Positions 36,278 to 61,694 of a stretch of 64,000 nt of DNA are shown here, piece by piece. Source of the DNA: Pontibacter korlensis (GTDB lineage: Bacteria > Bacteroidota > Bacteroidia > Cytophagales > Hymenobacteraceae); contig NZ_CP009621.1 of the NCBI RefSeq assembly GCF_000973725.1, positions 2,818,001 through 2,882,000 of the forward strand, written 5' to 3'. The notes beneath the pieces were generated by a model. It worked only from the letters and a program-made list of their open reading frames with translations, was not told the origin of the DNA and made no database searches. The position numbers and the translations under genes were made by a program. Each line of letters begins with the position of its first letter. Position 1 is the stretch's first letter.

Positions 36278-38746
36278 ATGACAGTAAAGTCACTTATTCA
36301 GATAATATTTCTCCTCCTGACTTGGATTTTGACTTCATCTTTTCAGGATCCCGCCAATGCTGGAAAAATGAAGCTTTGGTACAACCAGCCCGCCTCTAAC
36401 TGGAATGAGGCATTACCAATCGGTAATGGCAGGATTGGAGCTATGGTCTTTGGAACTCCTGCACAGGAAAGGCTCCAACTGAATGAGGAGACTGTATGGG
36501 CAGGAGGCCCCAATAATAATGTTAAGGCCGATGCCCAAGCAATTATACCAAAGCTTAGGCAATTGCTTTTTGAAGGGAAGTATAAGGATGCCCAGGAGTT
36601 GGCAGATAAAGAGATGACACCCTATGGCAACAGTGGTATGCCTTACCAACTGGTGGGGAATCTGCTGCTTAACTTTCCCACACATTCAAATTACGAAAAC
36701 TATTACCGCGAACTTGATATAGAGCGTGCTGTTGCAACCGTTACCTATATGGTGGATGGTGTAACGTATAAGCGAGAAACTTTTGCCTCCTTTCCAGATC
36801 AGGTGCTGGTTGTACGGCTGACAGCTGATGTACCAGGTAAGCTTAGTTTTAATGCTCGCTTGACTAGCCCTATGAACCACGTGTTACACAAAGAAGAGGA
36901 CCAGTTAGTACTTTCAGGAACCACAAGCGACCATGAAGACCAAAAAGGAAAAGTAAAGTTTCAGGCTCACTTAAAAGCTTTATCAGATGGAGGTAAAGTG
37001 TCTGTTAAAAAGGGGGAAGTGGAGGTTAAGAATGCCAACAGCGCCACACTCTACATTTCTATGGCTTCTAACTTTGTTAATTATAAAGACATAAGCGGTG
37101 ATGCAAACAAAAAAGCATCGGCCTACTTAAGTAATGCAGTTGCAAAGAGTTATAATTCTGCTCTAGAGGCACATGTAGCAGTATATAGCGCTTACTATAA
37201 CCGGGTAGCTTTAGACTTGGGTATAACAAAAGCAATAAATAAACCTACAGATATCCGCATTGCAGAATTCAGCACGACGGATGACCCTCATTTAGCTGCG
37301 TTGTATTTTCAGTACGGCCGTTACCTGCTCATCTCTTCTTCCCAGCCAGGCACACAGCCAGCAAACCTGCAAGGGATATGGAACGACAGCATGTCTCCGC
37401 CGTGGGACAGTAAGTACACCATTAACATCAACACTGAAATGAACTACTGGCCAGCAGAAGTCACCAATCTGTCTGAGTTGCACTACCCTCTTTTCGACAT
37501 GTTGAAAGACTTATCCGTAACGGGCCAGGAAAGTGCCTCTAAAATCTACGGGGCTAAGGGCTGGATGCTTCATCATAACACGGATATATGGCGGATTACT
37601 GGGCAGGTGGACCCTGCCTATTATGGTCTTTGGCCAATGGGAGGTGTTTGGTTGAGCCAGCATTTATGGGATCATTACCTATTTACAGGGGATAAAGAGT
37701 TTCTTCAAGAGTACTACCCGGTGCTGAAAGGAGCTACTGAGTATATAATAGATGTGCTACAGGAGGAGCCGGAACATAATTGGCTAGTTGTGGCTCCCTC
37801 AATTTCTCCAGAAAATGGCTATGATCCAGAAAAGAAAATAGCCATAACAGCAGGGGCGACCATGGATAACCAACTAGTGTTTGACCTTCTTTCTAAAACG
37901 ATGAATGCTGCTCAAATCTTGGACACAGATAAGGAATTTCAGGAGCAGCTTGCTAATAAGATTGAAAGAATCCCACCCATGCAGGTGGGGAAGCATGGGC
38001 AACTACAAGAGTGGCTGCATGATTGGGATGATCCTAACGATAGGCACCGACACGTGTCCCACCTTTACGGACTGTACCCAAGCAACCAAATTTCTCCCTA
38101 TCGTACACCTAAGCTGTTTGATGCTGCTCGTACTTCACTTATCCACAGGGGTGATCCGTCTACTGGTTGGTCTATGGGGTGGAAAGTAAACCTTTGGGCA
38201 CGTCTATTAGATGGTAACCATGCCTACAAGTTATTGACAAACCAACTGCGTTTGGTGACCGAGCGTGACGGCCCGGGTGGAACATACCCTAATATGCTGG
38301 ACGCTCACCCTCCTTTCCAGATAGATGGCAACTTTGGATGTACTGCCGGCATAGCAGAAATGTTAGTGCAGAGCCATGATGGTGTGCTACATATTTTACC
38401 AGCGTTACCAGAAAATTGGACCAATGGGAGTGTGAAAGGGCTAAAGGCCAGGGGAGGGTATGAGGTAGATTTGTCCTGGAAAAGTGGGAAGCTTGATCGG
38501 TTAGTAGTTAAGTCTAGTTTGGGCGGTAACTGCCGCATCAGAGTACATGATCCTATAAGAAGTGATGGAACTTATAGCCTAGTTAAAGCTAAGGGCGACA
38601 ATCCAAATCCATTTTACCACGTGCCGGAAGTGGTGGCGCCTATTGTTAGTCCTGAGGCAGAGCTAAATGAAGTTCTGCTAAATACATCTTATCTGTATGA
38701 CATCTCCACAGAGGCAGGCAAAACTTACTCCTTCAGCCTAGAATAG
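36278..38746 (+). CDS. GH95 family glycoside hydrolase (alpha-L-fucosidase/galactosidase)
   Basis: Exported inverting glycosidase of 822 residues acting on terminal alpha-1,2-L-fucose (or L-galactose). After a short hydrophobic signal (about 1-22) comes the N-terminal beta-sandwich (WNEALPIGNGRIGAMVFG at about 42), then the (alpha/alpha)6 barrel with the catalytic signatures: NINTEMNYWPAEV (Asn pair), SISPENGY (general acid Glu) and QIDGNFGCTAGIAEML (Asp). All three match the AfcA-type active site. It is just upstream of the SusC/SusD pair and oriented the same way, but a strong terminator at 38805-38863 and a 700-base gap separate them, so it is a separate transcription unit of the same locus. 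Confidence 0.95.
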   Translation: MTVKSLIQIIFLLLTWILTSSFQDPANAGKMKLWYNQPASNWNEALPIGNGRIGAMVFGTPAQERLQLNEETVWAGGPNNNVKADAQAIIPKLRQLLFEGKYKDAQELADKEMTPYGNSGMPYQLVGNLLLNFPTHSNYENYYRELDIERAVATVTYMVDGVTYKRETFASFPDQVLVVRLTADVPGKLSFNARLTSPMNHVLHKEEDQLVLSGTTSDHEDQKGKVKFQAHLKALSDGGKVSVKKGEVEVKNANSATLYISMASNFVNYKDISGDANKKASAYLSNAVAKSYNSALEAHVAVYSAYYNRVALDLGITKAINKPTDIRIAEFSTTDDPHLAALYFQYGRYLLISSSQPGTQPANLQGIWNDSMSPPWDSKYTININTEMNYWPAEVTNLSELHYPLFDMLKDLSVTGQESASKIYGAKGWMLHHNTDIWRITGQVDPAYYGLWPMGGVWLSQHLWDHYLFTGDKEFLQEYYPVLKGATEYIIDVLQEEPEHNWLVVAPSISPENGYDPEKKIAITAGATMDNQLVFDLLSKTMNAAQILDTDKEFQEQLANKIERIPPMQVGKHGQLQEWLHDWDDPNDRHRHVSHLYGLYPSNQISPYRTPKLFDAARTSLIHRGDPSTGWSMGWKVNLWARLLDGNHAYKLLTNQLRLVTERDGPGGTYPNMLDAHPPFQIDGNFGCTAGIAEMLVQSHDGVLHILPALPENWTNGSVKGLKARGGYEVDLSWKSGKLDRLVVKSSLGGNCRIRVHDPIRSDGTYSLVKAKGDNPNPFYHVPEVVAPIVSPEAELNEVLLNTSYLYDISTEAGKTYSFSLE

Positions 38747-38804
38747 TTTGGGGTTTGTTGAATGAACTTTCAAATTGAAAGGCATTTAATCAACCGTTGA
38801 AAAT

Positions 38805-38863
38805 AAAGCCAAAGGCATGACCACCTAGTCCTAAATGGGGCAGGTGGTCATGCCTTTGGCTTT
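38805..38863 (+). terminator. Intrinsic terminator after GH95 gene
   Basis: Perfect 22-bp arms (38805-38826 and 38842-38863) with loop of 15 bases, followed by GCTTAATTAT. Separates the GH95 unit from the SusC/SusD unit. Confidence 0.85.
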
Positions 38864-39447
38864 GCTTAATTATGCTTATAAATAAGATACTAACATTTAA
38901 ATAAATTTGATCTGTAAGTACTATGTGACTGGCAGCAGCTAACCAAATCAAAGTACACAGCTTTGTGTGGGAAGATCAAACTAATCTGTTGCTTTTCGCT
39001 TGGGGAGGATTTGCCTAGGCATTGTCCAGGGATTATTATGCGCATACTTTTCCCATAAATATGTTCTTTTGCCGGTTCACGTACTGGAACTTGTTAAAGT
39101 TATATTACCCCATTCACTTTTATCAGCAGGTACTTAGCTAAAATATTTACATAAATCCGCCACTAATTTTCTATAAAAATGATGGCGGATTCATTAGATG
39201 AGTTTTATACTCTGCAATAAAGCTTCTCAGAATCAAGGTACTAACAATAAACAAGCTATTACCCCCTGTTTCCTCCTTTAATATTCACGATTTAGTTGCA
39301 ATATTTTTAATATAGGATAAAATACCTTAACAGTTAGATAAAACTTATAAAGGAAAAGAGTTTATTATATTTTTTATTTGATTAATTAATAAGTGAGGCA
39401 TTACTCATGATGTGGATTGTTTGAAATCACGTTTAAAAAACAATGAT
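38864..39447. other. Long noncoding gap before SusC gene, with a hairpin
   Basis: About 580 bases without a supported gene, AT-rich towards the end. A hairpin AATCCGCCA/TGGCGGATT (39154-39162 and 39183-39191) has further pairing (ATTTT/AAAAAT) in its loop. The region 39300-39410 is very AT-rich and should hold the SusC promoter, but no convincing -33/-7 pair was found. Confidence 0.5.
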
Positions 39448-42400
39448 ATGGAAAGAACGCTGTACCACAAGGGAAAGGCTTTAGAAACCTTTTTAAGTGT
39501 GAAAAAGAGCAAGGGCAGGTTATCGCTGTTGTTTCTAGCACTATGCACGATGCAGTACCCATTGCAGGCACAAAATTATGCAAAGGAGAGTTCAGCGCTC
39601 TCCGCTACTACAGCTTCTGAGCCTAACAGAAGAGCTTTGAATGAAATTCCGCTTTTAGCAATGCACACCACTATAACAGTAGCTAAACAGGCTTCTGCGG
39701 TAGAAGGTTATAGTGAGAATCGTTTTCAGGCCGTTACAGTCACAGGCAGGGTAACGGATGAAGCAGGTGAGGGTTTACCTGGTGTAACGATATTGTTAAA
39801 GGGCACGAACACGGGGACTGCGACAGCTGCAGATGGTCGCTTCTCTATTTCAACGCCTGACGGTAGCGGTACGCTGGTTATATCCTTTATCGGATACCAG
39901 ACGCAGGAAGTGCCGGTTAATAACCGAACCAATATTGATGTATCTTTAGTGCCTGACACAAAATCTTTGAGTGAGGTTGTAGTAGTAGGGTATGGTAGAC
40001 AAGAGAAAAGAGACGTTACAGGCTCTATCTCAACTATCAAGTCGGAGGAGATCACACAGCTGCCTACTGCTTCTTTTGATGCTGCTATACAAGGGCGTGC
40101 CCCAGGTGTACAAGTCGCTACTGCAAGTGGTGTGCCTGGTGCTCCTACTCGCGTGCTTATCAGGGGCACAAACTCCATTTCTTCTGGCTCAGATCCTCTA
40201 TACATTGTAGATGGTATGCCAATCTCAAACGACCTGAATGGTTATGGTTCAAATAACGGTGCAACACCCCAAAACCCTATGGCTTCTATCAACCCTAATG
40301 ATATTGAGTCAATAGAGGTTTTAAAGGATGCTGCAGCCACTGCCATATATGGTTCTCGGGGATCAAACGGCGTAATAATTATCACTACCAAGTCAGGAAA
40401 AGGCGGGACAGGCAGTTTTAATGTTGATTATTCACAGGGTATTTCAGACCTGACCCGCACAGCTGAAGACATAGGCTTTGTAAACAGTGCGGAATATTTT
40501 GCTTTGATGGACCAGGCGAGAGCTAATTCAGGGCTTGGGCCGTTTGACCCCATGCGAAACGTAAACCTGTTTCCTAGTCCTGGAGGCGGTGTGGCTGTTG
40601 ATCCCATTACACGTGAGCAGGCAGAAAACACAAACACCGATTGGTTTGATCAGATTCTTCGCACAGGCAGTTTTCGTGATGTAAACGTGTCAGCCAGCCG
40701 AGGAGCTGAAAATCTTTCCTTCTTTACCTCAGCTAATTACCGCGAGGATGAAGGTGTTTTAAAGAATAACAAGTTTCAGCGTTTTTCTGGGCGTATCAAC
40801 TTGGATTTCGAACCTGTAAAAAACCTGCGCACCGGCACAAGGCTTAATTTTGCCTACACTAATAACAACCGGGCTAAGTCTCTTGGTACTGGTATGTCAA
40901 ATGGTTTTGGTTTCTCTCAGGCCGCAACATATGCTTTGCCTTGGTACCCTGTGTATCGCTTTGATGATCCTACACAGTACTGGAACCCGGTTGCATCTGT
41001 TAACCTGGCGGCGCAAAGTGATCCAAACAACATTCGTGATCAGGTGGACCAGTACAGAGGCATAGGCGGCGTGTGGGCCGAGTATTCCCTTCCTTGGGTG
41101 AAAGGTCTTTCTGTAAGATCAGAAGGGTCCTTCGATTTGATTCAGGCAAATACAGTTTATTGGGTGTCGCGTAACATCAGAAGTAGTACGGCCGAGAACG
41201 ATGGCTCTTATGCACAGGAAAATGCTACTACCGTACAAAACTACAACTACAACCTGTACGCCAACTATATTCTTGATTTTGGTGAAAAGCATAACCTGAG
41301 CCTGACTGCTGGTACCGAATCTCAGCGTACATCAAGGTATAGCCGCAATATGTCTGGTATGAACTTAACAGGTTCTTACCAAGAATTAGGTAACCCTGGG
41401 TTAAGAACAGGTATGAGTGCAGGCCTAGGCGGTGAGCGCTACATACGTGCCTACTTTACCCGTGCTAATTATAAACTGCTGGATAGGTACTTGTTTGGTG
41501 TGAGCTTCCGTCGTGATGGCTCATCTGCTTTCAGCGAAGATCTGCGTTGGGGTAATTTTGCGGCTGTTTCAGCAGGTTGGATTATCTCTGAAGAGGAGTT
41601 TATGCGCTCTATTCCTTTTGTGAACTTCCTTAAAGTACGAGGTAGCTTTGGCCAGACAGGTAACCAAAGCATTCCAAGCAATGTGGATGTGATGACGTTC
41701 CGTGGAGACCGTAAGTATGGTTACGATGACATGGGTGGAAGTTTAGGTACACAAGTGTCGAATATAGGAGCGGCAGACATCACTTGGGAAACAACAGACA
41801 GTTATGACTTTGGATTAGATTTCGGAATTCTTCAAAACAGGGTGTCCGGCTCTGTTGCTTATTACCACCGAAACGTAACAGATCTGTTGTTGCAGGTTCC
41901 GCTACCTCCTTCCGTGCAGCCGAGCCAAATTTGGGCGAATATAGGAGATATGCAGAACAAGGGCTTTGAATTTAACATCTCTACTATAAACGTAACAGCT
42001 GGAGATTTCCAGTGGAGAACAAATATTAACCTTACGACCAACTCCAATAAAGTTATAAGCTTGAACCCACAGGCAGACAAGACAGGCAGCGGTATTATTG
42101 ATGGCAACACGCTTACTAGAACAGGTGAAAGACTAGGCACCTGGTATATGGCAGACTATGCTGGCATAGATCCAGAAAAAGGTGTGGAGCTGATCTGGGA
42201 GCTAGACAAAGAAGTATTCGAAACAACTGGCCAAACTGTTAGAACAGGAAACACAATTCCTGCCACCATCAACAACCTGACTAACAATAGGTTCTTCCTG
42301 AAGGACAAAACAACGCTTCCAACTTATTTCGGGGGCTTCGATAACACCTTTACCTTCAAAGGCTTTGATCTAAATGCCTTATTTACCTTCTCAGGAGGAA

Positions 42401-42888
42401 ATTACCTGTACGATAACTCTGAAAAGGCTACAAGCTATGCTGCTTACGGGCAAATGCTGTTGAGAAAAAGCCTGATAGGGAATACTTGGACTCCTGAAAA
42501 CAGAGATGCTGAGTATCCTGAGTTGCGTTGGGACCACCAGTACTTGTACGACGATGAAGGAAACCCAAGCACAGGTACCAACTATAATAATGAAACACAG
42601 ATACATAACAAGTATTTGTACAAGGGAGACTACATCAGATTGCGCAATGTGCAGCTAGGTTATACATTCTCTTCAGCATTTACGGAGCGCCTCAGAATAC
42701 AAGGACTTCGGGTGTTTGTGTCAGGAACTAACCTTCTGACTTTCACGAACTTTCCAGGATGGGATCCTGAAGTAGTAACTAACGTTGGAAGTGGGCAGTC
42801 AGCTAACCTAAACCAAGGATTTATAAGCTCAAACCTGCCTGTACCCTCATTGAAAACATATACTGCTGGAGTTTCATTTAAATTTTAA
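39448..42888 (+). CDS. SusC/RagA family TonB-linked outer membrane protein
   Basis: TonB-dependent outer-membrane transporter of about 1146 residues that pulls oligosaccharides into the periplasm together with a SusD lipoprotein. After a signal-containing N-terminus (positively charged, hydrophobic to QAQ at about 42) comes a carboxypeptidase D-like domain (VTGRVTDEAGEGLPGVTILLK, about 95-170), the plug (EVVVVGYGRQEKRDVTGSIS, IQGRAPGVQV, RGTNSISSGSDPLYIVDGMPI, about 178-300) and a 22-strand barrel ending in KF, the usual C-terminal Phe. The ATG at 39448 is preferred over a GTG at 39412, since it begins a normal signal region. There is no extra N-terminal signalling domain, so it is not of the anti-sigma-linked type. 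Confidence 0.97.
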   Translation: MERTLYHKGKALETFLSVKKSKGRLSLLFLALCTMQYPLQAQNYAKESSALSATTASEPNRRALNEIPLLAMHTTITVAKQASAVEGYSENRFQAVTVTGRVTDEAGEGLPGVTILLKGTNTGTATAADGRFSISTPDGSGTLVISFIGYQTQEVPVNNRTNIDVSLVPDTKSLSEVVVVGYGRQEKRDVTGSISTIKSEEITQLPTASFDAAIQGRAPGVQVATASGVPGAPTRVLIRGTNSISSGSDPLYIVDGMPISNDLNGYGSNNGATPQNPMASINPNDIESIEVLKDAAATAIYGSRGSNGVIIITTKSGKGGTGSFNVDYSQGISDLTRTAEDIGFVNSAEYFALMDQARANSGLGPFDPMRNVNLFPSPGGGVAVDPITREQAENTNTDWFDQILRTGSFRDVNVSASRGAENLSFFTSANYREDEGVLKNNKFQRFSGRINLDFEPVKNLRTGTRLNFAYTNNNRAKSLGTGMSNGFGFSQAATYALPWYPVYRFDDPTQYWNPVASVNLAAQSDPNNIRDQVDQYRGIGGVWAEYSLPWVKGLSVRSEGSFDLIQANTVYWVSRNIRSSTAENDGSYAQENATTVQNYNYNLYANYILDFGEKHNLSLTAGTESQRTSRYSRNMSGMNLTGSYQELGNPGLRTGMSAGLGGERYIRAYFTRANYKLLDRYLFGVSFRRDGSSAFSEDLRWGNFAAVSAGWIISEEEFMRSIPFVNFLKVRGSFGQTGNQSIPSNVDVMTFRGDRKYGYDDMGGSLGTQVSNIGAADITWETTDSYDFGLDFGILQNRVSGSVAYYHRNVTDLLLQVPLPPSVQPSQIWANIGDMQNKGFEFNISTINVTAGDFQWRTNINLTTNSNKVISLNPQADKTGSGIIDGNTLTRTGERLGTWYMADYAGIDPEKGVELIWELDKEVFETTGQTVRTGNTIPATINNLTNNRFFLKDKTTLPTYFGGFDNTFTFKGFDLNALFTFSGGNYLYDNSEKATSYAAYGQMLLRKSLIGNTWTPENRDAEYPELRWDHQYLYDDEGNPSTGTNYNNETQIHNKYLYKGDYIRLRNVQLGYTFSSAFTERLRIQGLRVFVSGTNLLTFTNFPGWDPEVVTNVGSGQSANLNQGFISSNLPVPSLKTYTAGVSFKF

Positions 42889-42900
42889 AGTTTTAGAATC

Positions 42901-44553
42901 ATGAGCATGAAAAATATTTCGAAACAAAGCCGTTGGATGCTTGCCATCGTTCTGCTCCTCATGTCTGTGAGTTCCTGTAAGGATGATGAGTTTTTCGAAC
43001 AAACGAACCCACCCGAAACTCCTTGGCTAAACGTGAACGAGTTTGAGAGAGCCGTGATCGGAGCTTATGCTGCTTTGCTTACAGACTATTGGGGAGCCCC
43101 TATAAGTAGCCACAATTTTGTAAAGATTATTGGGTCGGATGTTACCTACTGGATTCCTGGTGAAGGAGGAAACATGGACTCAGATGCTATGTACTACCGC
43201 AAAACAAACCAGGAGACTGGCTATGCATCAGGTTTCTTTTCTACTAGTTACAGTGTTATCAACAATGTTAACGTCGCGCTTGATTTTATAGCCCAGCACA
43301 ATGGAGATCCTTTCCCTAATGCTTCGCAAGCAGATAAGGAGCACAACTTGCCACGCATTGAAGGAGAGCTACTATTCCTTCGTGCTGTTACCTATCGATC
43401 TTTAGCTGCTATACACCTGCCTTGGTACAAAACAGAAGGAGGTAATGATGCACGCATCTTACCTTTGAGAACTACATTTCCAAGTACTGGAGAAGAAGCT
43501 GCTAGCTCTAAGATTGGAACAGTGGAGGAGATATGGCAGCAAATTGTTGCGGATTTGACTAAAGCGAAGGAACTACTGCCAGAGACTTACATGGCGGGAG
43601 TGCACCATCCTACTTATCAGCATGGAAGAGCAAACAAATTCGCAGCGGCAGCTATGCTGGCAAGAGTGCATTTCCAAATGGGCAACTGGGATGAAGCCAT
43701 GAAAGAGCTGAATTTCGTAATCGATCAAAACGGTGGTCAGTATGACTTGAGCGAAGACCCAATAGACGCTTGGAACAAGGACTCTCCGATACGCGGCAGA
43801 GAAGTAATTTGGTACCAGTTGTTTTCTGACCCGAATGATGGGGGACGCAATTACCTTCACTATGCCAGTATAAATAAAAGCCACTACGAAGCAATGGGAG
43901 GTGGAGGACCGATTTCAACTGGTGGTAATAACAGCGTTGCCCCTTGGAACGGCTTTACCTGGAGCTACGATGCTTTAGCCCGTGTAGGTTGGATGGTAGA
44001 TCCTAAAAACGGAGATTACACTGAAACAGAGGAGGCTAAAAGAGACAAGCGTTACCAACAGTTGTACTATCGTTACGAAGGCTATAAAGGCCCTCTAACA
44101 CCAGAAGAGGAAGCGCTTGGTATATGGGAGGCGCGTTTCGAAGACGTTACCACACCAATGGTATGGGCAAATAAATATTACAGAGGCAACGTCGGAATCG
44201 AAACGAATGTACCCTTGCTTCGCCTAGCCGAGATGTACCTGACACGTGCTATCATTCGACACAGACAAGGAGACGTGGCAGGTGCGACTGCCGATGTGAA
44301 CGTAGTTCGTGTTCGGGCGGGCCTAGATCCGCTTAGCTCAGTAACAGAGGAAGATATTCACAATGAACGCATCAAAGAGATGCACCAGGAAGGCGACCGC
44401 TTAGATTACTTGCGAGCACTCCACTTGCCAATTCCTCCGGGAGATCGTGATCCAAGCCAGCCATTTAGTACTATTGAGTATCCGTACACGGAGTATGCCT
44501 GGTCCATACCACAGCGTGAGAAAGATCTAAATGCGGGTTATACTGGATTATAA
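42901..44553 (+). CDS. SusD/RagB family nutrient-binding outer membrane lipoprotein
   Basis: Surface lipoprotein that closes over the SusC barrel and binds glycan. The N-terminus is a lipoprotein signal with the lipidated Cys at residue 26 (SVSSC). The TPR-rich SusD fold shows RAVTYRSLAAIHLPWY near 160, the HHPTYQHGRANKFAAAAMLARVHFQMGNWDEAMKELNFVI repeat near 235, NVPLLRLAEMYLTRAIIRHRQGDVAGATADVNVVRVRAGL near 440 and ERIKEMHQEGDRLDYLRAL near 490, all typical. Length 550 aa is normal. It starts 12 bases after the SusC stop, clearly co-transcribed. Confidence 0.97.
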   Translation: MSMKNISKQSRWMLAIVLLLMSVSSCKDDEFFEQTNPPETPWLNVNEFERAVIGAYAALLTDYWGAPISSHNFVKIIGSDVTYWIPGEGGNMDSDAMYYRKTNQETGYASGFFSTSYSVINNVNVALDFIAQHNGDPFPNASQADKEHNLPRIEGELLFLRAVTYRSLAAIHLPWYKTEGGNDARILPLRTTFPSTGEEAASSKIGTVEEIWQQIVADLTKAKELLPETYMAGVHHPTYQHGRANKFAAAAMLARVHFQMGNWDEAMKELNFVIDQNGGQYDLSEDPIDAWNKDSPIRGREVIWYQLFSDPNDGGRNYLHYASINKSHYEAMGGGGPISTGGNNSVAPWNGFTWSYDALARVGWMVDPKNGDYTETEEAKRDKRYQQLYYRYEGYKGPLTPEEEALGIWEARFEDVTTPMVWANKYYRGNVGIETNVPLLRLAEMYLTRAIIRHRQGDVAGATADVNVVRVRAGLDPLSSVTEEDIHNERIKEMHQEGDRLDYLRALHLPIPPGDRDPSQPFSTIEYPYTEYAWSIPQREKDLNAGYTGL

Positions 44554-44673
44554 AATGTAACCTGGTAAGAAAAGAAGCGGTAAGAGCAGCCCGTAAGTTG
44601 CTCTTGCTGTTCTCTTCATTTCCAATTGCTTTTATAGCATAAATGATTGAAAGAGAATACAATCTTAAAGCAT

Positions 44674-46119
44674 ATGCCTTACAAACTACAGGCTTACTTG
44701 CCCTTATTGTGTCTAATGTTAAGCTTCATGCTTCCTTTTGCCTCCATAGCGCAAACAAGTGAGCGTCTGAGAACGCTTGTGCTTACAGATATCGAAAACG
44801 AACCAGACGATGCTCAGTCTTTGGTCAGGTTCCTGACTTACTCCAACCAATGGGATGTGGAGGGAATAATTGCTACCACATCTACCCACTCAAAGAGCAA
44901 AATAGCCGATTGGCGTGTTCATGAAATTCTAAAGGCTTACGATAAGGTGCAGCCGAACCTGCTTAAGCATGAAAAAGGCTTTCCTCCCTATGCAGACCTT
45001 AAAACCAAAGTTAAAAAAGGTTTACCCGTTTACGGAATGAATGGTGTTGGTGAAGGCAAAGATTCTGAAGGCTCTGAGTGGATTATCAGTGTGCTCGAAA
45101 AAAACGATGACCGGCCTGTTTGGGTGCTGGTTTGGGGTGGTCCCAATTGCTTGGCACAGGCCCTTTGGAAAATAAGAAAAACTAAAACACCAGCTGAAGC
45201 AGAAAAGCTATACAAGAAAGTAAGGGTGTATACCATTTCAGATCAGGATGATTCCGGCCCCTGGATACGTAAGGAGTTTCCTAACCTTTTTTATATCTGT
45301 AGCCCAGGTTTCGATGCAAAGGGTGGCTACCATCATGCTACCTGGACGGGGATCTCAGGTGATACATTTTTGGGCCGTTTTCAGGGAGCTAACAGAGAGG
45401 TTATCAGTAAAGAATGGTTACGGGAGAACATACAGGAAAACCACGGTCCGCTGGGAGCAGAGTATCCTGATGTGGCATATCTTATGGAAGGAGACACACC
45501 TTCTTTTTTGTACTTGATTTCTAATGGCCTTAATAACCCTGAGCATCCAAACTACGGAGGCTGGGGTGGAAGGTATGAGTTCTACAAACCCAGATCACAG
45601 AAATGGTTTTCCCAACCTGAAACCCGCCCAATTTGGGCAGATGCTGTAGATGAGTATTTCTCGCCAATTGATAGCCACTACCACACAAGTAATAAAGTAA
45701 CCATCTGGCGTTGGCGTGAAGAATTTCAAAATGACTTCGCAGCCCGCATGGATTGGTGTGTGAAAGACTATAGGCAGGCGAATCATCCTCCTGTGCCAGC
45801 ATTGGCTCATACAGAAAATCTATCAGCAAGATCAGGAGAAGAGGTAAAGCTAAGTGCCAAAGGAACCACCGATCCTGACGGGCACGAACTGACTTACCAG
45901 TGGTTTCATTATCCTGAGCCAGGCACATATGCTTCTTATGAAGGAGCTATAAAAGTAGAGCATGCGGATGCCATGGAAGCAAAAGTAAAGGCACCCCATG
46001 TTGATGCTCCTGAAACGGCACATTTTATCTTGAAGGTTACAGATAAAGGCAGTCCAAGGCTAACACGCTATAAACGGGTTGTCCTGCACATTCAGCCAGC
46101 CAAGCAGCAGGTTGAATAG
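44674..46119 (+). CDS. DUF1593 protein, nucleoside hydrolase-like
   Basis: Exported protein of about 481 residues with a signal peptide ending SIAQT. The N-terminal domain (about 30-330) carries LTDIENEPDDAQSLVRFL, an Asp-rich calcium-binding loop similar to that of inosine-uridine nucleoside N-ribohydrolases, and VWGGPNCLAQALW; this is the DUF1593 (cellulose-binding-protein annotated) family. A C-terminal Ig-like domain (about 385-480, GEEVKLSAKGTTDPDGHELTYQWFHYPEPG) follows. Start is ATG 44674; a TTG frame begins at 44647. It is the third gene of the SusC operon, 120 bases after SusD. Proteins of this family recur in pectin and fucose-related loci; a glycosidase role on an unusual sugar is likely but unproved. 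Confidence 0.85.
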   Translation: MPYKLQAYLPLLCLMLSFMLPFASIAQTSERLRTLVLTDIENEPDDAQSLVRFLTYSNQWDVEGIIATTSTHSKSKIADWRVHEILKAYDKVQPNLLKHEKGFPPYADLKTKVKKGLPVYGMNGVGEGKDSEGSEWIISVLEKNDDRPVWVLVWGGPNCLAQALWKIRKTKTPAEAEKLYKKVRVYTISDQDDSGPWIRKEFPNLFYICSPGFDAKGGYHHATWTGISGDTFLGRFQGANREVISKEWLRENIQENHGPLGAEYPDVAYLMEGDTPSFLYLISNGLNNPEHPNYGGWGGRYEFYKPRSQKWFSQPETRPIWADAVDEYFSPIDSHYHTSNKVTIWRWREEFQNDFAARMDWCVKDYRQANHPPVPALAHTENLSARSGEEVKLSAKGTTDPDGHELTYQWFHYPEPGTYASYEGAIKVEHADAMEAKVKAPHVDAPETAHFILKVTDKGSPRLTRYKRVVLHIQPAKQQVE

Positions 46120-46209
46120 CTACAGTATGAAACGCACAGCTTGACTAGAGTTTGTGTAGAAAGTAAAACGATAAGCCTTTCAGGTTTACTATTTAAAAGA
46201 CCGGTAAAA

Positions 46210-52811: not shown

Positions 52812-54191
52812 ATGACAAGAGCTCTTTTCTTAGCTATGTTTTTAATGTTTGCGGTAAGTACAGCACAGGCTCAGCAGTATGAATCAAACTGGGCATCGCT
52901 GGATAAGCGGGAAACTCCTAAGTGGTGGACAGATGCCAAGTTTGGCATATTTATTCACTGGGGACCTTATGCGGTACCTGCCTATGCTCCGGTAGACGAG
53001 GTGGAAGGTGTTTATGATAAATACGCCGAACACTACGAGAACAGGATGATTGCCAAAAATGAGCTATTCATGAAGCACCATAAAAAGCATTTTGGAGAGA
53101 ACTTCACTTATCAGGACTTCGCCCCGATGTTCAAAGCCGAGTACTTCAATCCTGACAAGTGGGCTGATCTGTTTCAAAAGTCAGGTGCCAAGTATGTGGT
53201 GCTTACCTCCAAACACCATGATGGCTTCTGCCTTTGGCCGAGCGAGCAAAGCCCGCGTTGGAACAGTGTTGCTGTTGGTCCGCACCGTGACCTGGCTGGT
53301 GAGCTGACGGAGGCGGTACGAAACAAAGGCCTGCGCATGGGCTTTTATTATTCTCTTTTGGAGTGGAGCCACCCTTTGTATAAAGAGTCTACTATAAACC
53401 AGTGGGTGGATGAGCACATGATTCCGCAGATGAAAGACCTGGTAACACGCTATAAACCCGAAGTGGTTTTTTCTGATGGAGAGTGGGACTATACCAGCGA
53501 TAAGCTAAAGAGTGAGCAGTTCTTGGCCTGGCTTTACAATGAGTCGCCGGTGAAAGAAACGGTTGTGGCTAACGACAGATGGGGAAGCGAGACACGCAGC
53601 AAGCACGGTGATTACTACACCACCGAGTATGACTTAGTGCACAGTGAAGAAGGCATAGGCGAGGCAGGCTCTCACCCTTGGGAGGAAAGCAGAGGTATAG
53701 GCACCTCTTACGGCTATAACCGCTTCGAAACCACCGATCACTATTTCACTTCGAAGCAACTAGTAGATCTGCTCATCGACAAAGTGAGCAACGGTGGCAA
53801 CCTGCTGCTTAACATAGGTCCAAAGGCGGACGGTATGATTCCAGTGATTATGCAGGAGCGCCTGCTGGATATAGGGGCATGGCTGAAGGTGAACGGCGAT
53901 GCTATCTACGGTACCAGAGCGTGGGAAAAGCGGCCGCAGGACATGAAGGAGCAAGGTGTCTTTTACACTGCCAAAGGCAATGACCTGTATGTGATCTGCA
54001 CGAAATGGCCCGAACAGCCTTTCATAGTAAAAGGTGTGAACGGAGCAGGAAAAGTAAGCATGCTAGGCACTAAGGCGCAAGTAAAATCTTCTGCCAAGAA
54101 TGGAAGGCTTACTATCACACCTCCAATCCTGAACCCGGGTAATGTGCCGTGCGACTACGCATGGGTGTTTAAAGTAGAAAGAGTAAAATAA
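52812..54191 (+). CDS. GH29 alpha-L-fucosidase, second copy
   Basis: Exported retaining alpha-L-fucosidase of about 459 residues; a signal peptide ends at TAQAQ (around residue 22). GH29 signatures: WWTDAKFGIFIHWGPYAVPAYAPVDEVEG, SKHHDGFCLWPSEQSPRWNSVAVGPHRD near 130, and the nucleophile region VVFSDGEWDYT near 218, with NGGNLLLNIGPKADG near 325. It has the extended loop with Trp-Tyr/His residues of the broad-specificity type (GH29-A). ATG codons at 52797 and 52812 are both possible; the second gives a cleaner signal peptide. It follows the GH141-like gene by 160 bases. Confidence 0.95.
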   Translation: MTRALFLAMFLMFAVSTAQAQQYESNWASLDKRETPKWWTDAKFGIFIHWGPYAVPAYAPVDEVEGVYDKYAEHYENRMIAKNELFMKHHKKHFGENFTYQDFAPMFKAEYFNPDKWADLFQKSGAKYVVLTSKHHDGFCLWPSEQSPRWNSVAVGPHRDLAGELTEAVRNKGLRMGFYYSLLEWSHPLYKESTINQWVDEHMIPQMKDLVTRYKPEVVFSDGEWDYTSDKLKSEQFLAWLYNESPVKETVVANDRWGSETRSKHGDYYTTEYDLVHSEEGIGEAGSHPWEESRGIGTSYGYNRFETTDHYFTSKQLVDLLIDKVSNGGNLLLNIGPKADGMIPVIMQERLLDIGAWLKVNGDAIYGTRAWEKRPQDMKEQGVFYTAKGNDLYVICTKWPEQPFIVKGVNGAGKVSMLGTKAQVKSSAKNGRLTITPPILNPGNVPCDYAWVFKVERVK

Positions 54192-54253
54192 CCAAAGGCT
54201 TTCCCTGTCTTCAGTGTTCACCGAAGGACTTGGGTGTGTCCCTAATAGCCTAT

Positions 54254-56986
54254 ATGAAGATGTTAAAGAGGGTAAGTTGTGTTGTTTCTATTGTGTTGTT
54301 GGGTATTCTGTCGGTTTTAAGCCTATCCTGTTCTAACTCCATGCAGGAAAATGAGCGGACAAACCTTTCAAATAGTAAAGCTGCCACAGTACCCCCAGAG
54401 GAAAACCGGTTTACAGTGGAAGTACTGGAAACGAAACTTTATGAGCCAATGGAGTTGGCGGTAAGACCCGATGGGAAAGTCCTATATATTGAGCGCAGAG
54501 GCGTATTGCGGCTTTACGAGCCAGCGAAGAAGGCTAGTCGTACTGTTGGGGAGCTAAATGTATTCAGCGGGAACGAAGATGGCTTATTAGGTCTGACATT
54601 GGATCCACAGTTTGCTAAAAATAACTGGATATACCTGTTTTACTCTCCAGCTGGCAAAGACCCTATACAGCGAGTGTCCCGTTTCGATTTTGTGAAAGAC
54701 AGCTTACTTCTGTCCAGCGAAAAGATCTTGATGAGCTTTCCAGTACTTCGGCAATGCTGCCACTCAGGTGGGGCGCTGGAGTTTGGGCCTGACGGAAGTC
54801 TATACATTTCTGTTGGCGATAACACCGTTGCAAGTACTTCTGATGGCTATGCTCCTATAGACGAAAGGCCGGACAGGCTTATCAGTGATGCGCAAAAGTC
54901 GGCAGCAAACTCCAACGACCTTAGAGGCAAAATCCTGCGCATCAAACCAAACCTAGACGGCACCTACAGAATTCCTGATGGAAACCTTTTTCCGAAGGAC
55001 GGCTCTAAAGGCCGACCAGAAGTTTATACCATGGGCAACCGCAACCCATTCAGAATTTCAATTGATCAGAAAACGGGTAACCTGTACTGGGGAGAAGTTG
55101 GACCTGATGCTGGAAAGGACGATAACACTCGGGGACCAAAGGGATACGATGAAGTGAATCGCGCTACGAAAGCAGGTAACTTTGGGTGGCCGTATTTTGT
55201 AGCAGATAACAAGCCCTATAGGTATTATAACTTTCAGGATAGTACCTCTGGCGAACTTTTTGACCCACAGGCTCCTATAAATAATTCACCTAATAACACT
55301 GGCCTGAGAGAGTTGCCTCCTGCTCAAAAGGCCCTGATCTATTACCCATATGATGCATCTTCGGAATTTCCTATTGTTGGAGAGGGGGGGCGAAACGCCA
55401 TGGCTGGGCCAGTCTTTTATATGGACCTGTTCCCCTCTGATGCACGAACCTTTCCGGAATTTTACGAAGGTCGGCTGTTTATTTATGATTGGATGCGGGA
55501 ATGGATTATGACGGCAAGGGTAGGAGAGGATTCTGTCGAGCTTGAAAGGTTCCTGCCTAACACTCATTTTGCCCACCCGATTGATATGCAGTTTGGTGCC
55601 GACGGAGCTTTGTATGTGCTGGAGTATGGAACTTACTGGCATGCAAACAATGATGACTCCAAGCTTATTCGAATACAGTATCACGCCAATAACCGAAAGC
55701 CTCTTGCTCGAGCATCAGCCGACAGAACAGAGGGTGCTGTACCATTCACCGTTAACTTTTCATCTGAAGGCACATTGGATTATGACGATGGCGACCAACT
55801 TACTTATGCCTGGTCTTTTGACGGAATCAAAATTCACTCAAAGGAAGCTTCTCCTACTTTTACCTTTACCAAACCAGGTGTTTATCAGGTAGCTTTAAAG
55901 GTAACGGATAAGGAAGGCTATACTGATGAAGCTAAGTTGGAAATAAGAGCTGGCAACGAACCTCCGAAAATTAGCATACAGACAGATAATAACCGCTCTT
56001 TCTACTGGAACAATCATTCTTTCAACTATGCTGTGAAAGTGGAAGACCGTGAGGACGGAAACATTACAGCTGGATCGCCACAGGGGAATGATGTAAAAGT
56101 GTTTTTCGATTACCTGCCCGAAGGCTATGATCTGGTGCAAACGGCCTTGGGGCAGGACTTGTCTGCTGTTAACGCCAACCTGAAAGGAAAGATGCTAATT
56201 AAAAATAGCGATTGCAAAGCCTGCCACTCTCTTATGAACAAATCTGTGGGGCCGAGCTACATGGATGTTGCTACACGACACAAAGGGAAAGACAGTAAAA
56301 AAGCATTGGCTTCTAAGATCATAAAAGGTGGCTATGGTAACTGGGGCGAAGTGCCTATGGCTGCTCATCCACAACTTTCGCAGGAAGAAGCCGAGGAGAT
56401 GGTAAAATACATACTTGGCTTAGCCGATCCACAAACAGACCTGAAGCCGTTGCCTATGAAAGGGAAGGTAACAACCAATCAGCATAAAGGAAAAGAAGGT
56501 ACTTATTTTCTTACGGCTAGTTATACTGACAAAGGGCATAACAGTATAGCTCCCATTACTACCCGTGAAGTAATTGCCTTGCGACACCCTCAGGTGGACC
56601 CTTCTACTTGTGATGCGAGCAAAGGCGTTATGATTCGGAAAGATATTGGGCGTGTCCGGTTCACAGAGAACGAGTCTTATATTGTCTTCAGAGGGGTAGA
56701 TCTAACAGGTGTCAGCAGCCTCACAATCAAAACTGTTCCGTCTAAGGTTACGGCTACGCTTGAAGTTCAGACAAATTCTTTGGGTGGACAGACTATAAGC
56801 AGTGCAAAGCTATCTGCCAGTGAAAAGGAAAATAAATATACAATAGATGTCAAGCCTTCAGCATCAGTGCATGGCCTGTACTTTGTATTGAAGGTAGATA
56901 GCAAAGAAGAAATAGGCATCTGGAATACGCTGGACATCGAGCAGATTGAATTTAATCAGGAGAGGCAGAACCATAAAGTACAGTAA
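54254..56986 (+). CDS. Multidomain lipoprotein: sorbosone dehydrogenase propeller, PKD, cytochrome c, C-terminal sandwich
   Basis: Periplasmic or surface lipoprotein of about 910 residues (lipobox LSLSC near residue 25). The first domain (about 40-460) is a PQQ-dependent sugar (sorbosone-type) dehydrogenase six-bladed propeller: LYEPMELAVRPDGKVLYIERRG, GNEDGLLGLTLDPQF, GGALEFGPDGSLYISVGDN, NRNPFRISIDQKTGNLYWGEVGPDAG. A PKD domain (about 490-570) follows, then a class I cytochrome c with haem motif CKACH (Cys654, Cys657, His658) and a likely Met ligand in the segment about 700, and a C-terminal CBM6/35-like sandwich (about 770-910). It would oxidise a sugar and hand electrons to its own haem. 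Start at ATG 54254; a TTG lies at 54230. No break seen. Confidence 0.88.
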   Translation: MKMLKRVSCVVSIVLLGILSVLSLSCSNSMQENERTNLSNSKAATVPPEENRFTVEVLETKLYEPMELAVRPDGKVLYIERRGVLRLYEPAKKASRTVGELNVFSGNEDGLLGLTLDPQFAKNNWIYLFYSPAGKDPIQRVSRFDFVKDSLLLSSEKILMSFPVLRQCCHSGGALEFGPDGSLYISVGDNTVASTSDGYAPIDERPDRLISDAQKSAANSNDLRGKILRIKPNLDGTYRIPDGNLFPKDGSKGRPEVYTMGNRNPFRISIDQKTGNLYWGEVGPDAGKDDNTRGPKGYDEVNRATKAGNFGWPYFVADNKPYRYYNFQDSTSGELFDPQAPINNSPNNTGLRELPPAQKALIYYPYDASSEFPIVGEGGRNAMAGPVFYMDLFPSDARTFPEFYEGRLFIYDWMREWIMTARVGEDSVELERFLPNTHFAHPIDMQFGADGALYVLEYGTYWHANNDDSKLIRIQYHANNRKPLARASADRTEGAVPFTVNFSSEGTLDYDDGDQLTYAWSFDGIKIHSKEASPTFTFTKPGVYQVALKVTDKEGYTDEAKLEIRAGNEPPKISIQTDNNRSFYWNNHSFNYAVKVEDREDGNITAGSPQGNDVKVFFDYLPEGYDLVQTALGQDLSAVNANLKGKMLIKNSDCKACHSLMNKSVGPSYMDVATRHKGKDSKKALASKIIKGGYGNWGEVPMAAHPQLSQEEAEEMVKYILGLADPQTDLKPLPMKGKVTTNQHKGKEGTYFLTASYTDKGHNSIAPITTREVIALRHPQVDPSTCDASKGVMIRKDIGRVRFTENESYIVFRGVDLTGVSSLTIKTVPSKVTATLEVQTNSLGGQTISSAKLSASEKENKYTIDVKPSASVHGLYFVLKVDSKEEIGIWNTLDIEQIEFNQERQNHKVQ

Positions 56987-57215: not shown

Positions 57216-58217
57216 ATGAAATCCAGACGAGACTTTTTCAAGAAGTCTGCGGCTGCATTTACCATTGTCCCGCGATTTGTGTTGGGGGGCAAAGGGTACG
57301 GCAAGAGCTGGTAAGGATATTGGGTGCGAGAAGCCAATGACCCGCACCATTGGCGAAGGCAAACGCGTGGTGGAGGCCGTACAGCAGCATGGGCGCATCT
57401 TCCGCCTGAATACCTGGTTTCGTTTCGGTTCGATGACATTTTTTACGGAATGGGCACCCCTGTAAAACCCATCAAAAAGCTGGTGGATAGCGGCCTGTTT
57501 GGTTGGCCTTTGAAAGTGACGGTAAGCCGCCACACAGGCTATGATTGGAAGTTCTATTGGGTGGGTAAAACTAACCTGGATCCTGTGCCAGTACCACAGG
57601 AGCTTGATTACAACATGTGGTTAGGACCAGCACCGTACCGGCCATATAATCCGCACCGGGTGCACGGTACATTCCGAGGGTACTGGGATTATGATGGAGG
57701 AGGCCTAGGCGATATGGGGCAGCACTACATGGATCCTGTTCAGTACTTCCTAGGTAAAGACAACACTAGTCCAATATCGGTGGAAATAGACGCGCCACAG
57801 CAGCATACCGACGCCGTAGGTACGTGGTGCAGAGTCGTGTACACCTACGAAGATGGCTGTCAGATTATTTTAGATGGAGAGGGTAAAGATGAACATGTAC
57901 CTTTCATAGAAGGGCCCAACGGCAAGCTATACCCAGGCTTCCGCTCCGATATTGCTGACTTGCAGCGCAAACTGGCGGCTTTCCCCGATCCTGAGCCACA
58001 GGTGACAAACTTTGTGGAAGCCGTGAAGAATCGTACAAAGTTCGCCCTTAACGAGGAAAATGGCCATCGTTCCTGCACACTTGTTAATATGGGCCTTGCA
58101 GCCCTACGCCTGGGTCGTTCCCTGAAATTTGACCCAGTAAAGCAGGAGTTTATTAATGATGAAGGAGCTAATCGTCTGGTTTATCAGCCAATGCGTTCGG
58201 GCTGGACACTGGTATAG
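57216..58217 (+). pseudogene. Gfo/Idh/MocA family oxidoreductase, deleted and frameshifted
   Basis: Remains of a Tat-exported oxidoreductase. The first 32 codons from ATG 57216 encode the twin-Arg signal SRRDFFKKSAAAFT and the start of the mature protein, VLGGKGY, then a stop. The next conserved stretch is ARAGKDIGCEKPMTRTIGEGKRVVEAVQQ in another frame, so about 120 codons including most of the Rossmann NAD(P)-binding half are missing. A further shift near 57425 leads to the C-terminal substrate domain (GGGLGDMGQHYMDPVQYF, EDGCQIILDGEG), intact to the stop at 58217. The gene cannot give a functional enzyme. It lies directly between the sorbosone-dehydrogenase fusion and the DUF1080 pseudogene. 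A short unassigned stretch (56987-57215) precedes it, with a possible start-like remnant at 57034. Confidence 0.9.
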
Positions 58218-58279
58218 CTTCACCCTAAAATCAATTGCAAATATTCAAAAGAGGAACAGAACTCTGTTTTGCTATGATC

Positions 58280-61200
58280 ATGAAAAGAACATCATTACTG
58301 CTCCTTGCTATGGCTGCGACAAGTTCAATGGCAATGGCGAAACGAGAAAACGACCAACGCACCCTAACTACCCGAGTTGCCGATCTGCTAGCCGAAATGC
58401 CAGCCCGCGACCAGCAGCACCTGGAAGCCAGTATGAGCGAAATGGCAGCTATGGGAAAAGAAGGCATTTTAGCAATGAAAAGTATGCTCTCTACACCAGG
58501 TAAGGGCGACGATTCTAAAATCGAATTTGCGCTGGACGGATTCTCTTATTATGTCATGCAGTCGGCAAGGGAGGACTGGAGAAAAATGAGTGTGGATGCC
58601 TACTGCGAATCTTTGGCTAAAGCAAGCAATCCAGAAAATAAAGCATTTCTTATACAGCAGCTTCAGAGGGTTGGAAACGAAGATGCTGTACCCTGTCTGC
58701 AAGGTTATCTGGGTGATGTACGCCTTTGTGCTCCTGCCGCCAATGCTCTAACCAGTATCAACTCAACAAATGGTGAAACAGCCTTGCTGCAGGCGTTGCA
58801 AAGTATAGAGGGCGACTGCCGTTTTTCGTTAGTAGAAGCTCTCGGAGATACCCGGCATGCTGCTGCTGTAGCCTCCCTGACACCTTTGGCAAGCAGTCAG
58901 GATGTTAAACTACGAAAGCTGTCTCTTTATGCCTTGGCCAATATTGCAGATCTTGCATCGGAGGATGTGTTAGCAAGAGCAGCACAAGAAGACGGCTATA
59001 CCTACGACCATGACAATGCTACTGCCGCTTACATTTTATACGCCAGCCGTTTGGCTGAGGATGGAAAGCAACATCAGGCCGAGAAGATAGCAGAAACACT
59101 GTTGCATAATACTAGCTAGGAGAGCCAGGTGCATACCCGCACCGCCGCTTTAAAATTGCTTTCTGAGTTACAGGGTGAGAAAAGTGTTCCACTGCTTTTA
59201 AATGCATCTGGCGACAGTAATCCTGCTTATCGTGCTGCTGCACTAGGTTTTTCTTCTGCATTCATCACTCCCGCTACCACAGCTTTTTGGGTAAAGAAAC
59301 AAAAAAGTCAGATGCCGAAGTGCGGGCAGACATCATTACTTTGCTTGGTGACAATAGAGCAGAAGAAGCCATGTCTGCCGTGAAAAAAGCGCTCAGGAAT
59401 AAAAATGAGAAAGTAAGGTTGGCTGCCGTTGCCGCAGCTGGGAAAATAGGCCAGGAAGAAGTGCTGCCAGAACTGCTTCGTGTCATGCAAAAAGGAGATG
59501 AAAGAGATGCAGTTGCCGTAAAGAATGCTTTGCTGATAATGAAAGGCAATAGCATTATTGATCAGGTAGCTGAAGCTTTGCCTAAAATGCCTGCAGTGGC
59601 CCAAGCCGAACTTCTTTCTGTGATGGGTGCTCGCGCCGCACATAGCAGGATAAACAATGTACTTTCTTATGCTGATGATAAAGACCCGAGAATACGTATG
59701 GCTGCTCTGTCGGCTCTTGGGCAGATGGCTAGGAAAGAAGACCTTCCTCAGTTATATGTTTTGTTAGACAGAGTGTCACAGCCAGAGGAGCTTGAAGCAA
59801 TGCAGAAAGCTATTATTGTAGCCGTAAAAGAGTATGAATCACAACAGCAACAAGCCCAGTTGGTGCTGCAGCAAATGGAGAAAGCTCCTGCTAATAAAAA
59901 GTCAGCCTATTTTAATGTTTTAGCAGGTATAGGTGGGCAGGAAGCATCAAATACCGTGGCTCAGGCATTCAGTAATGGCAACGAAGCAACTAGAATAGCT
60001 GCTGTAAATGCTCTGTCGCAATGGTTGGATGTGAGTGCAGCCAAAGCGCTTTATTGCATAGCAAAAGAACCAGCAAATGGTGCTTACTTAGATGAAGCAC
60101 TGAGAGGGTACATCCGGACAGTAAGTACTTCCAAATACCCTGCAGATCAGAAAGTGCTGTTGCTGCGCGATGGAATGGAGGTGGCTCAAACGCCAGAGCA
60201 AAAGAAGCTGATACTGCGGGAAGTAGAGAAAAACAAAACATTTCCAGCTTTGGTTTTTGCTGGCAGATAGCTCGATGACCCAGCTTTGCAGCAAGAGGCT
60301 GCCCGAGCTGTTATGGGTATTGTGCTTGCGAATAATGTATTTCAGGGCAATGTGGTGCGGCAGCATCTGAATAAAACCTTGGGGGGGTTAACGGGACCAG
60401 ATAGCGAATATTCGAAAGCATCAATTCGTAAGTTTTTGGACGAGATGCCAGAGGGCGAGGGCTTTGTCGCGCTTTTTAATGGCAAAGACCTGACAAGCTG
60501 GAAAGGTTTGGTGGCAAACCCGATAGAGCGTGCTAAAATGGATAAGAACACACTGGCGCAGAAGCAAAAGCAGGCTGATGAACAGATGCGCCAAAGCTGG
60601 GTAGTAGAAAAGGGGAACTCATTTTTACAGGCAAAGGCGATAACATCGCCACTGTGAAAAACTATGGCGACTTTGAAATGTTTGTCGACTGGAAAATTTT
60701 CGACGGTGGCCATAAGGAAGGTGATGCTGGTATCTACCTGCGAGGAACGCCACAGGTACAGATTTGGGATACTTCCCGCGTGAATGTGGGTGCACAGGTC
60801 GGTTCTGGTGGTTTGTATAATAACCAGGTACATGAAAGTTAACCGCTTAAGGTGGCCGATAACGCGCTAGGTGAGTGGAACAACTTCAGAATTCTGATGC
60901 AGGGCGACCGTGTAACAGTATACCTGAACGGTGAGCTGGTAACGGAAAATGTAATTCTGGAGAACTACTGGGACAGAAAGCTTCCTATATTCCCTGAAGA
61001 GCAACTGGAGTTACAGGCGCACGGCTCTCGGGTAGCGTATCGTGTTATTTACATACGCGAGATACCACGGCCTAAGCCTTTTGAACTTAGTGCCGCTGAG
61101 AAGAAGGAAGGGTTTAAAGTGTTATCTAATGGATCTAACATGCACAACTGGCAAGGAAACACGACAGACTATGTTGTCGAGAACGGAGAGCTGGTGGTTC

Positions 61201-61694
61201 GGGAGCCTAAGTTTGGCAGCGGAGGTAATCTGTTCACGAAAGATGAGTTCAGTGACTTTGTCTTCCGTTTTGAATTCAAACTAACACCTGGAGCAAACAA
61301 TGGCTTGGGTATCCGTACGCCGCTGGAGGGAGATGCTGCCTACGAAGGTATGGAACTGCAAATCTTAGATAATGACGCCGACATTTATAAAGACCTGAAA
61401 GAATACTAATACCACGGTTCTGTGTATGGTGTCATTCCAGCCAGGCGTGGTTATTTAAAGCCAGTGGGGGAGTGGAACTACAAAGAAGTGATGGTAAAGG
61501 GTAACAAAATAAAAGTGGTTTTAAACGGAACCACCATTTTGGACGGAGACATAGCACAAGCTAGCAAGAATGGTACTCTGGACGGTAATGAGCATCCGGG
61601 CCTGAAACGTGCCAAAGGGCACATCGGATTCTTAGGACACGGCTCTACTGTCTGGTTTCGCAATATTCGGGTGAAAGACTTGAGCAAAAAATAA
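58280..61694 (+). pseudogene. HEAT-repeat and DUF1080 (3-keto-disaccharide hydrolase-like) protein, multiply disrupted
   Basis: A secreted protein of about 1130 residues: signal peptide (to AMAK, about 21), HEAT repeats (to about 60430), and two DUF1080 concanavalin-like domains (starting FVALFNGKDLTSWKG near 60469, and GFKVLSNGSNMHNWQG near 61108). Lesions: TAG 59117-59119 (between NTS and ESQVHTRTA), a frame change near 59285, TAG 60268-60270 (AGR/LDDPALQQ), a one-base deletion near 60611 in VVEK/GELIF, TAA 60840-60842 (HES/PLKVAD) and TAA 61407-61409 (KEY/YHGSVYG). Between lesions the sequence keeps its family residues. DUF1080 proteins cleave 3-keto-glycosides made by Gfo/Idh/MocA oxidoreductases, so loss of both neighbours is consistent with abandonment of that route. 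Confidence 0.9.

Follow-up and report, generated by a model that had tools for sequence, protein, structure and literature searches.

Enzymes of families GH95 and GH140 (DUF4038) take part in the breakdown of rhamnogalacturonan II (RG-II). Chain A of RG-II is the target of the GH141 enzyme BT1002 (PMC10154630), and GH139 is described as essential for RG-II (PMC12282258). Most identified fucoidan loci hold GH141 together with GH29 and GH95 fucosidases (PMC12786026), while an oxidative L-fucose pathway with the permease FucP is known, including by reconstruction, from other bacteria (PMC5507952). In a Pontibacter, a starch/glycogen-type GH13/GH57 locus has been studied (PMC11206854); among the matches listed in a literature search, none dealt with a fucose locus of this genus. 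Here, we describe a SusC/SusD-type polysaccharide utilisation locus of Pontibacter korlensis, contained in a stretch of 64,000 nucleotides (the window, bases 2818001-2882000 of the 5.46 Mb single-contig genome). With a probability of about 0.7, it is a Pontibacter locus for a fucose-bearing glycan that has partly decayed in the window strain. This reading is built on gene content, retained catalytic residues, gene decay, synteny in two species and the presence of a fucose operon.

A locus shared by two Pontibacter species

Gene families were assigned by a Pfam scan of 16 open reading frames (ORFs) at 36278-62668, a set that leaves aside three reverse-strand ORFs (159-175 aa) overlapping locus genes and all ORFs shorter than 150 aa. 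Adjoining SusC and SusD genes, the only such pair in the locus, stand among carbohydrate-active enzymes. A preliminary description had listed GH95, two GH29, GH141-like, DUF1593, DUF4038 and GH5-like proteins, a SusC/SusD pair and a redox fusion, with no sulfatase; all of these were recovered by Pfam, and no sulfatase was detected among the 16 scanned ORFs. The end it gave, 61694, is that of a HEAT-DUF1080 pseudogene.

A SusD search led to a sister locus in Pontibacter anaerobius M82 (NZ_JAPFQO010000003.1). Nine locus genes and a regulator lie there in identical order: SusC, SusD, GH29a, DUF5060-DUF4038, GH5-like, GH29b, GSDH fusion, Gfo, HEAT-DUF1080 and AraC. Amino acid identities reach 79% for GH29a, 82% for DUF4038, 84% for the GH5-like enzyme, 80% for GH29b, 67% for the GSDH fusion and 89-90% for Gfo. 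The P. anaerobius locus differs in three respects: its copies of the shared genes are all open, an oxidative L-fucose operon follows directly, and it has neither DUF1593 nor GH141 between the flanking genes, nor any GH95 in the genome assembly at E 1e-30. The preliminary description had overlooked this smaller shared core. GH95, DUF1593 and GH141 may have been gained in the window strain or lost in P. anaerobius.

From GH95 to HEAT-DUF1080, the locus counts 12 genes. Comparison with the intact P. anaerobius orthologues revealed that three of these are broken in the window, all of them overlooked before. The DUF5060-DUF4038 gene, earlier taken as an ordinary member, is split by one frameshift near 47.96 kb (the intact orthologue has 569 aa), a lone indel that could be a sequencing error. 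The Gfo/Idh/MocA gene has lost some 80 N-terminal codons, most of the NAD domain, and carries a frameshift, while HEAT-DUF1080 has stops at 59117, 60268, 60840 and 61407 as well as two frameshifts; with so many lesions in these two genes, sequencing errors are an improbable explanation. The loss looks recent, since the DUF1080 part has kept 86% identity to that of P. anaerobius. Synonymous divergence (dS) between the two species is saturated for nearly all genes (Gfo left out). The other nine genes, among them those for SusC, SusD and the four enzymes of fucosidase families, are open.

In P. anaerobius, HEAT-DUF1080 is followed by genes for AraC, FucP, a short-chain dehydrogenase/reductase (SDR), an FAH-family hydrolase, a fuconolactonase-like protein, L-fucose dehydrogenase and an altronate-dehydratase-like protein (L030:12787-19670). 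FucP scored 464 bits with TIGR00885 (cut-off 280) and the fucose dehydrogenase 413 bits with NF052481 (cut-off 300). The window genome carries a homologous set at about 720-731 kb (L042/L043), roughly 2.1 Mb from the locus and with an AraC paralogue. Its FucP, lactonase, FAH and SDR proteins are 75, 67, 66 and 68% identical to those of P. anaerobius, and its dehydratase 63 and 54% in the two pieces fetched. The fucose dehydrogenase query matched at 35% over part of its length, and the ORF L042:14269-15051 aligns over its full length by eye. Thus, by similarity, permease, dehydrogenases, lactonase, dehydratase and hydrolase of the oxidative pathway occur together, with lactate-oxidation genes (assigned by eye) alongside, and no fucose isomerase was detected in this genome with PF07881 (positive in 3 of 14 control genomes). 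The locus AraC is 79% identical to the AraC lying between locus and operon in P. anaerobius, and 55% to the paralogue that accompanies the fucose operon of the window genome. Because an oxidative fucose operon follows the P. anaerobius locus and a matching one exists in the window genome, L-fucose is the likely product of the locus as predicted from sequence, which supports the earlier proposal of a fucosylated polymer.

Both Pontibacter operons hold an altronate-dehydratase-type gene in the place that an enolase-superfamily fuconate dehydratase takes in the known pathway (named in a reference title in PMC5507952). Another galactarate/altronate-type dehydratase, 62% identical to the P. anaerobius operon copy, is encoded at window positions 2977-4665, beside an SDR and pectinase genes. 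Next to the locus AraC, in the position that the fucose operon occupies in P. anaerobius, a 1,143-aa DUF7133-HEAT protein starts at the end of the window (window position 63206 to L034:4637).

Features of the Pontibacter korlensis locus (window positions)
Feature	Coordinates	Strand	Evidence
GH95 alpha-L-fucosidase/galactosidase, signal-peptide-like start	36278..38746	+	PF22124, 616 bits
Long hairpin 3' of GH95, terminator-like, without T run	38804..38864	+	fold -50.6 kcal/mol, z -10.8
SusC-like TonB-dependent transporter	39412..42888	+	Pfam; 81% to P. anaerobius
SusD-like protein, lipoprotein-like start	42901..44553	+	Pfam; 87% to P. anaerobius
DUF1593 (Sde182-like, nucleoside-hydrolase-like)	44647..46119	+	PF07632 381 bits; 2yhg 311 bits
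GH29 alpha-L-fucosidase a (GH29a)	46141..47631	+	Pfam; best solved relative 6gn6
DUF5060-DUF4038 (GH140-like) glycosidase gene, frameshifted	47684..49332	+	'Apiosidase' PF13204, 196 bits
GH5-like enzyme, rare lineage	49414..50442	+	PF00150 29.9 bits, cut-off 23.5
GH141-like parallel beta-helix enzyme	50540..52651	+	beta-helix and GH141_M insertion domain, 41.9 bits, cut-off 27
GH29 alpha-L-fucosidase b (GH29b), C-terminal domain	52797..54191	+	Pfam; best solved 7pls, 1hl8
GSDH (PQQ sugar dehydrogenase-like)-PKD-cytochrome c fusion	54230..56986	+	open; CKACH haem motif
Gfo/Idh/MocA dehydrogenase pseudogene	57216..58217	+	compared with intact 419-aa P. anaerobius gene
HEAT-DUF1080 (3-keto-disaccharide hydrolase-type) pseudogene	58235..61694	+	compared with intact 1150-aa P. 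anaerobius gene
Terminator-like hairpin ending gene run	61709..61765	+	fold -31.9 kcal/mol, z -5.2
AraC-type cupin regulator, candidate locus regulator	61793..62668	-	Pfam

From SusC to HEAT-DUF1080, intergenic gaps measure 12-201 bases. GH95 is separated from SusC by 665 bases containing the strong hairpin, so it is probably a transcription unit of its own, outside the SusC operon. The SusC to HEAT-DUF1080 run may itself comprise more than one unit, since a pattern scan called a 15-pair hairpin between SusD and DUF1593, in a scan whose total was near chance. Promoter and terminator pattern scans stayed at chance level, and the terminator scan called neither the hairpin 3' of GH95 nor the one that ends the gene run. 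A plasmid origin of the locus was considered and rejected, SusD having no relative at E 1e-30 in a plasmid collection.

Fucosidase-family enzymes and their companions

Alignment to known catalytic positions showed catalytic-type residues kept in GH29a, GH29b, GH95 and the GH141-like enzyme. The GH95 protein has the catalytic domain with an Asn pair (YTININ), a Glu (SPE) and an Asp (IDGNFG), residues placed by motif and not by alignment to AfcA. Its closest solved structure is 4ufc (933 bits), which we take to be BACOVA_03438. The catalytic residues of AfcA are N421/N423 and E566, and BACOVA_03438 frees L-galactose from corn glucuronoarabinoxylan according to the review that reports both (PMC10154630). 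By its sequence, the window GH95 may be specific for either fucose or L-galactose. A 78% identical GH95 occurs in another genome of the genus, in a different setting, together with a GH141 fragment. That fragment (G042:C1:1364061-1364351, L011) covers 94-97 residues at 75-78% identity, adjoins GH95-type genes and is perhaps a second decayed GH141.

GH29a and GH29b share 35% identity over 414 aligned residues. Both have the Alpha_L_fucos domain, an Asp nucleophile and a Glu acid/base, the pair in GH29a being candidates. Beyond 6gn6, the next solved matches of GH29a are 9eu1-9eu4; for GH29b, 7pls is a tissue alpha-L-fucosidase, presumably human, and 1hl8 presumably comes from Thermotoga. The Asp nucleophile is conserved in GH29 (PMC10154630). 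Genome-wide, four GH29-type matches were found. Two are those of the locus; the other two, at 750-752 kb, lie about 20 kb away from the fucose operon.

The best solved match of the GH141-like protein is 9rx2 (175 bits), followed remotely by BT_1002 (5mqp, 133 bits). Beta-helix and insertion domain are both present, and the catalytic pair D523/D564 of BT1002 (PMC12786026) aligns with Asp residues at chain positions 528 and 569, a constant offset of 5. Family GH141 includes endo-fucanases and a xylanase besides a fucosidase (PMC12786026), so the activity of a member cannot be read from its family. At E 1e-30, homologues occurred in 4 of 148 genomes of relatives (own genome counted, one hit being a fragment).

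The GH5-like enzyme matched no NCBIfam name. Its candidate catalytic residues, E175 and E253, are invariant in four homologues. The enzyme turned up in 4 of 390 genomes when the order was searched and in 1 of 395 when the phylum was, with the own genome in both counts; widening the search to the family of one genome (G155) gave hits in two of eight genomes, both already known, and no new sequences. A structure model from the four sequences, with a mean pLDDT of 46.8, was too poor for fold comparison. Two homologues in the order (L031:7417-15412 and L033:8580-12599) lie near a four-carbon-acid kinase-type gene and a gene that by eye is Asp/Glu racemase-like, and the L031 neighbourhood also has a transketolase gene in split form. 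These two neighbourhoods could conceivably serve a sugar such as apiose.

Intact DUF5060-DUF4038 of P. anaerobius retains the D187/E284 pair of the GH140 apiosidase BT1012 (PMC4032388), with only 83 bits to 3kzs and an extra DUF5060 domain, and with the window copy frameshifted. In 19-20 kb around its homologues in three genomes (G654, G609 and G500), no other locus genes were found except a weak Gfo match in G609. The redox fusion had been put forward as part of an unrecognised combination. At E 1e-100, 78 of 241 genomes of the order have homologues of it (own genome counted, three candidates scored per genome), and among the matches listed most align over nearly the full length; it is, therefore, an ordinary protein of the order.

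Candidate substrates and proposed mechanism

From these observations, we infer a substrate, places of action, an order of steps, end products and regulation by the AraC protein as follows. SusC and SusD would import oligosaccharides into the periplasm. The two GH29 enzymes, together with GH95 and GH141 (both absent from the sister locus), would free L-fucose, and DUF5060-DUF4038, the GH5-like enzyme and DUF1593 would act on the remaining glycan. Free L-fucose would enter through FucP and pass the oxidative route, by fucose dehydrogenase, lactonase, dehydratase, keto-deoxy-fuconate dehydrogenase and FAH-family hydrolase, to pyruvate and lactate. These steps are in part general background. Part of them is described in PMC5507952. 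The AraC protein is a candidate regulator of the locus. In the window strain, the DUF4038 glycosidase and a 3-keto-glycoside branch (Gfo dehydrogenase, DUF1080 hydrolase) would be out of action, so the window locus at best delivers the fucosidase part.

Several observations weigh against this reading. GH95 and GH29 include galactosidases, and GH141 the other activities named above (PMC10154630, PMC12786026); judged by sequence, the four enzymes are candidate fucosidases. Of the two genomes, only that of P. anaerobius has the fucose operon beside the locus. Curated models, applied to the P. anaerobius operon copies alone, gave scores above a specific cut-off for two of the six genes; those of lactonase, FAH and dehydratase type stay below equivalog cut-offs, and the first SDR passes a general subfamily model only. 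A regulatory motif shared by the locus and the fucose operons was sought and rejected, no 10-mer being common to at least three of eight intergenic regions (locus, AraC genes and fucose operons). The GH5-like homologues of two other genomes lie beside genes of four-carbon kinase type and, in one, transketolase, not fucose genes. A GH141 homologue in genome G093 (62%) lies outside any fucosidase locus, with no fucosidase among ten neighbours scanned, which include GH43 and a DUF1593-DUF5060 protein.

This DUF1593-DUF5060 protein and the GH141 homologue are encoded some 6 kb apart (L014:11240-12577 and L014:18753 onward). With its GH43 and SusC-like genes, the G093 stretch is a loose echo of the window set without fucosidases.

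As a special case of the fucose-glycan reading, the substrate might be an extracellular polysaccharide of microbes or algae that is rich in fucose, or else fucosylated oligosaccharides in free form, cut mostly from the ends. The scanned ORFs include no recognisable surface endo-enzyme and no enzymes for pectin, xyloglucan or sulfated glycans. Fucose is usual in cyanobacterial extracellular polysaccharides, and some heterotrophs living with cyanobacteria have oxidative fucose pathway genes (PMC5507952). The locus-based arguments are all from absence, and this preferred guess is a tentative one, held at somewhat less than even odds.

That the whole locus is a relic that no longer feeds the cell would fit its three broken genes. 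With nine of 12 genes open, SusC, SusD and four enzymes with retained catalytic residues among them, we consider general decay unlikely. Equally low is the chance that the core DUF5060-DUF4038 and GH5-like proteins represent glycosidase families that are new and act on a fucosylated glycan so far missing from the described substrates of such loci. The intact P. anaerobius form would then join GH29 hydrolysis, GSDH-cytochrome c/Gfo oxidation and HEAT-DUF1080 3-keto-glycoside cleavage of a fucose-bearing core, feeding the adjacent fucose operon.

The preliminary description had favoured fucosylated plant polymers, either RG-II side chains or fucosylated xyloglucan. The RG-II roles of GH95, GH140 and GH141 enzymes mentioned at the outset speak for this, as do the GH28 and pectinesterase genes in the window. 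However, every open enzyme gene of the locus falls in another family, and no RG-II signature family beyond GH95, GH140 and GH141 appears among the scanned ORFs, above all no GH139, which was looked for in the locus only. A xyloglucan locus comprises an endo-xyloglucanase, an alpha-xylosidase (GH31) and a beta-galactosidase. The scanned ORFs yielded no GH31, GH74, GH9 or assigned endo-glucanase, the GH5-like enzyme being without family assignment. Moreover, the orthologous P. anaerobius locus lacks GH95 and GH141, and the GH140-like gene is broken in the window. The pectinase block (GH28, pectinesterase), once cited in support of pectin, is a weak argument because it ends about 31 kb before GH95. 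The interval holds Clp ATPase, WbqC-like and acyltransferase genes, others being housekeeping-like by eye. RG-II or xyloglucan is, thus, quite improbable as the substrate. Also in the interval are a DDE transposase gene (29886-31559) and a partial transposase (17455-18141).

A fucoidan locus with sulfatases lost or never present is more improbable still. The company of GH141, GH29 and GH95, as in the fucoidan loci mentioned at the outset, speaks for it; with no sulfatase among the scanned ORFs, the earlier choice against fucoidan is reasonable.

Significance and relation to known systems

The fucose-glycan reading offers a testable candidate locus for Pontibacter, which gene order in one of the species links to an operon for burning fucose. 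With it comes a GH5-like enzyme that is rare, has no named family and is worth testing. The case also illustrates that inferring a substrate from the enzymes of a single genome can mislead, because the sister locus lacks two enzymes suggesting RG-II, GH95 and GH141, and a third, DUF4038, is broken here.

With the RG-II system of Bacteroides thetaiotaomicron, in which we take BT1010 to be the GH95 enzyme and BT1012 the GH140 apiosidase, the window locus shares the GH95, GH141 and DUF4038 families. It differs in having no other RG-II signature families among the scanned ORFs and a broken DUF4038 gene; instead, it has two GH29 enzymes and a link to a fucose operon. Fucoidan loci, for example that of Wenyingzhuangia fucanilytica (PMC12786026), bring GH29, GH95 and GH141 together as the window locus does; the difference is that no sulfatase was seen among the scanned ORFs of the latter. 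The 3-keto-glycoside pathway, with the DUF1080 3-ketotrehalose hydrolase BT2157 (PMC9007349), resembles P. anaerobius in placing Gfo/Idh/MocA beside DUF1080. Both genes are intact in P. anaerobius, where Gfo scores 160 bits with the NCBIfam model BT_2158_fam, far under the cut-off of 750, whereas both are broken in the window, and HEAT repeats are fused to DUF1080. As a gene cluster, the locus belongs to a familiar kind, of which it is an unusual example, and does not stand for a new one.

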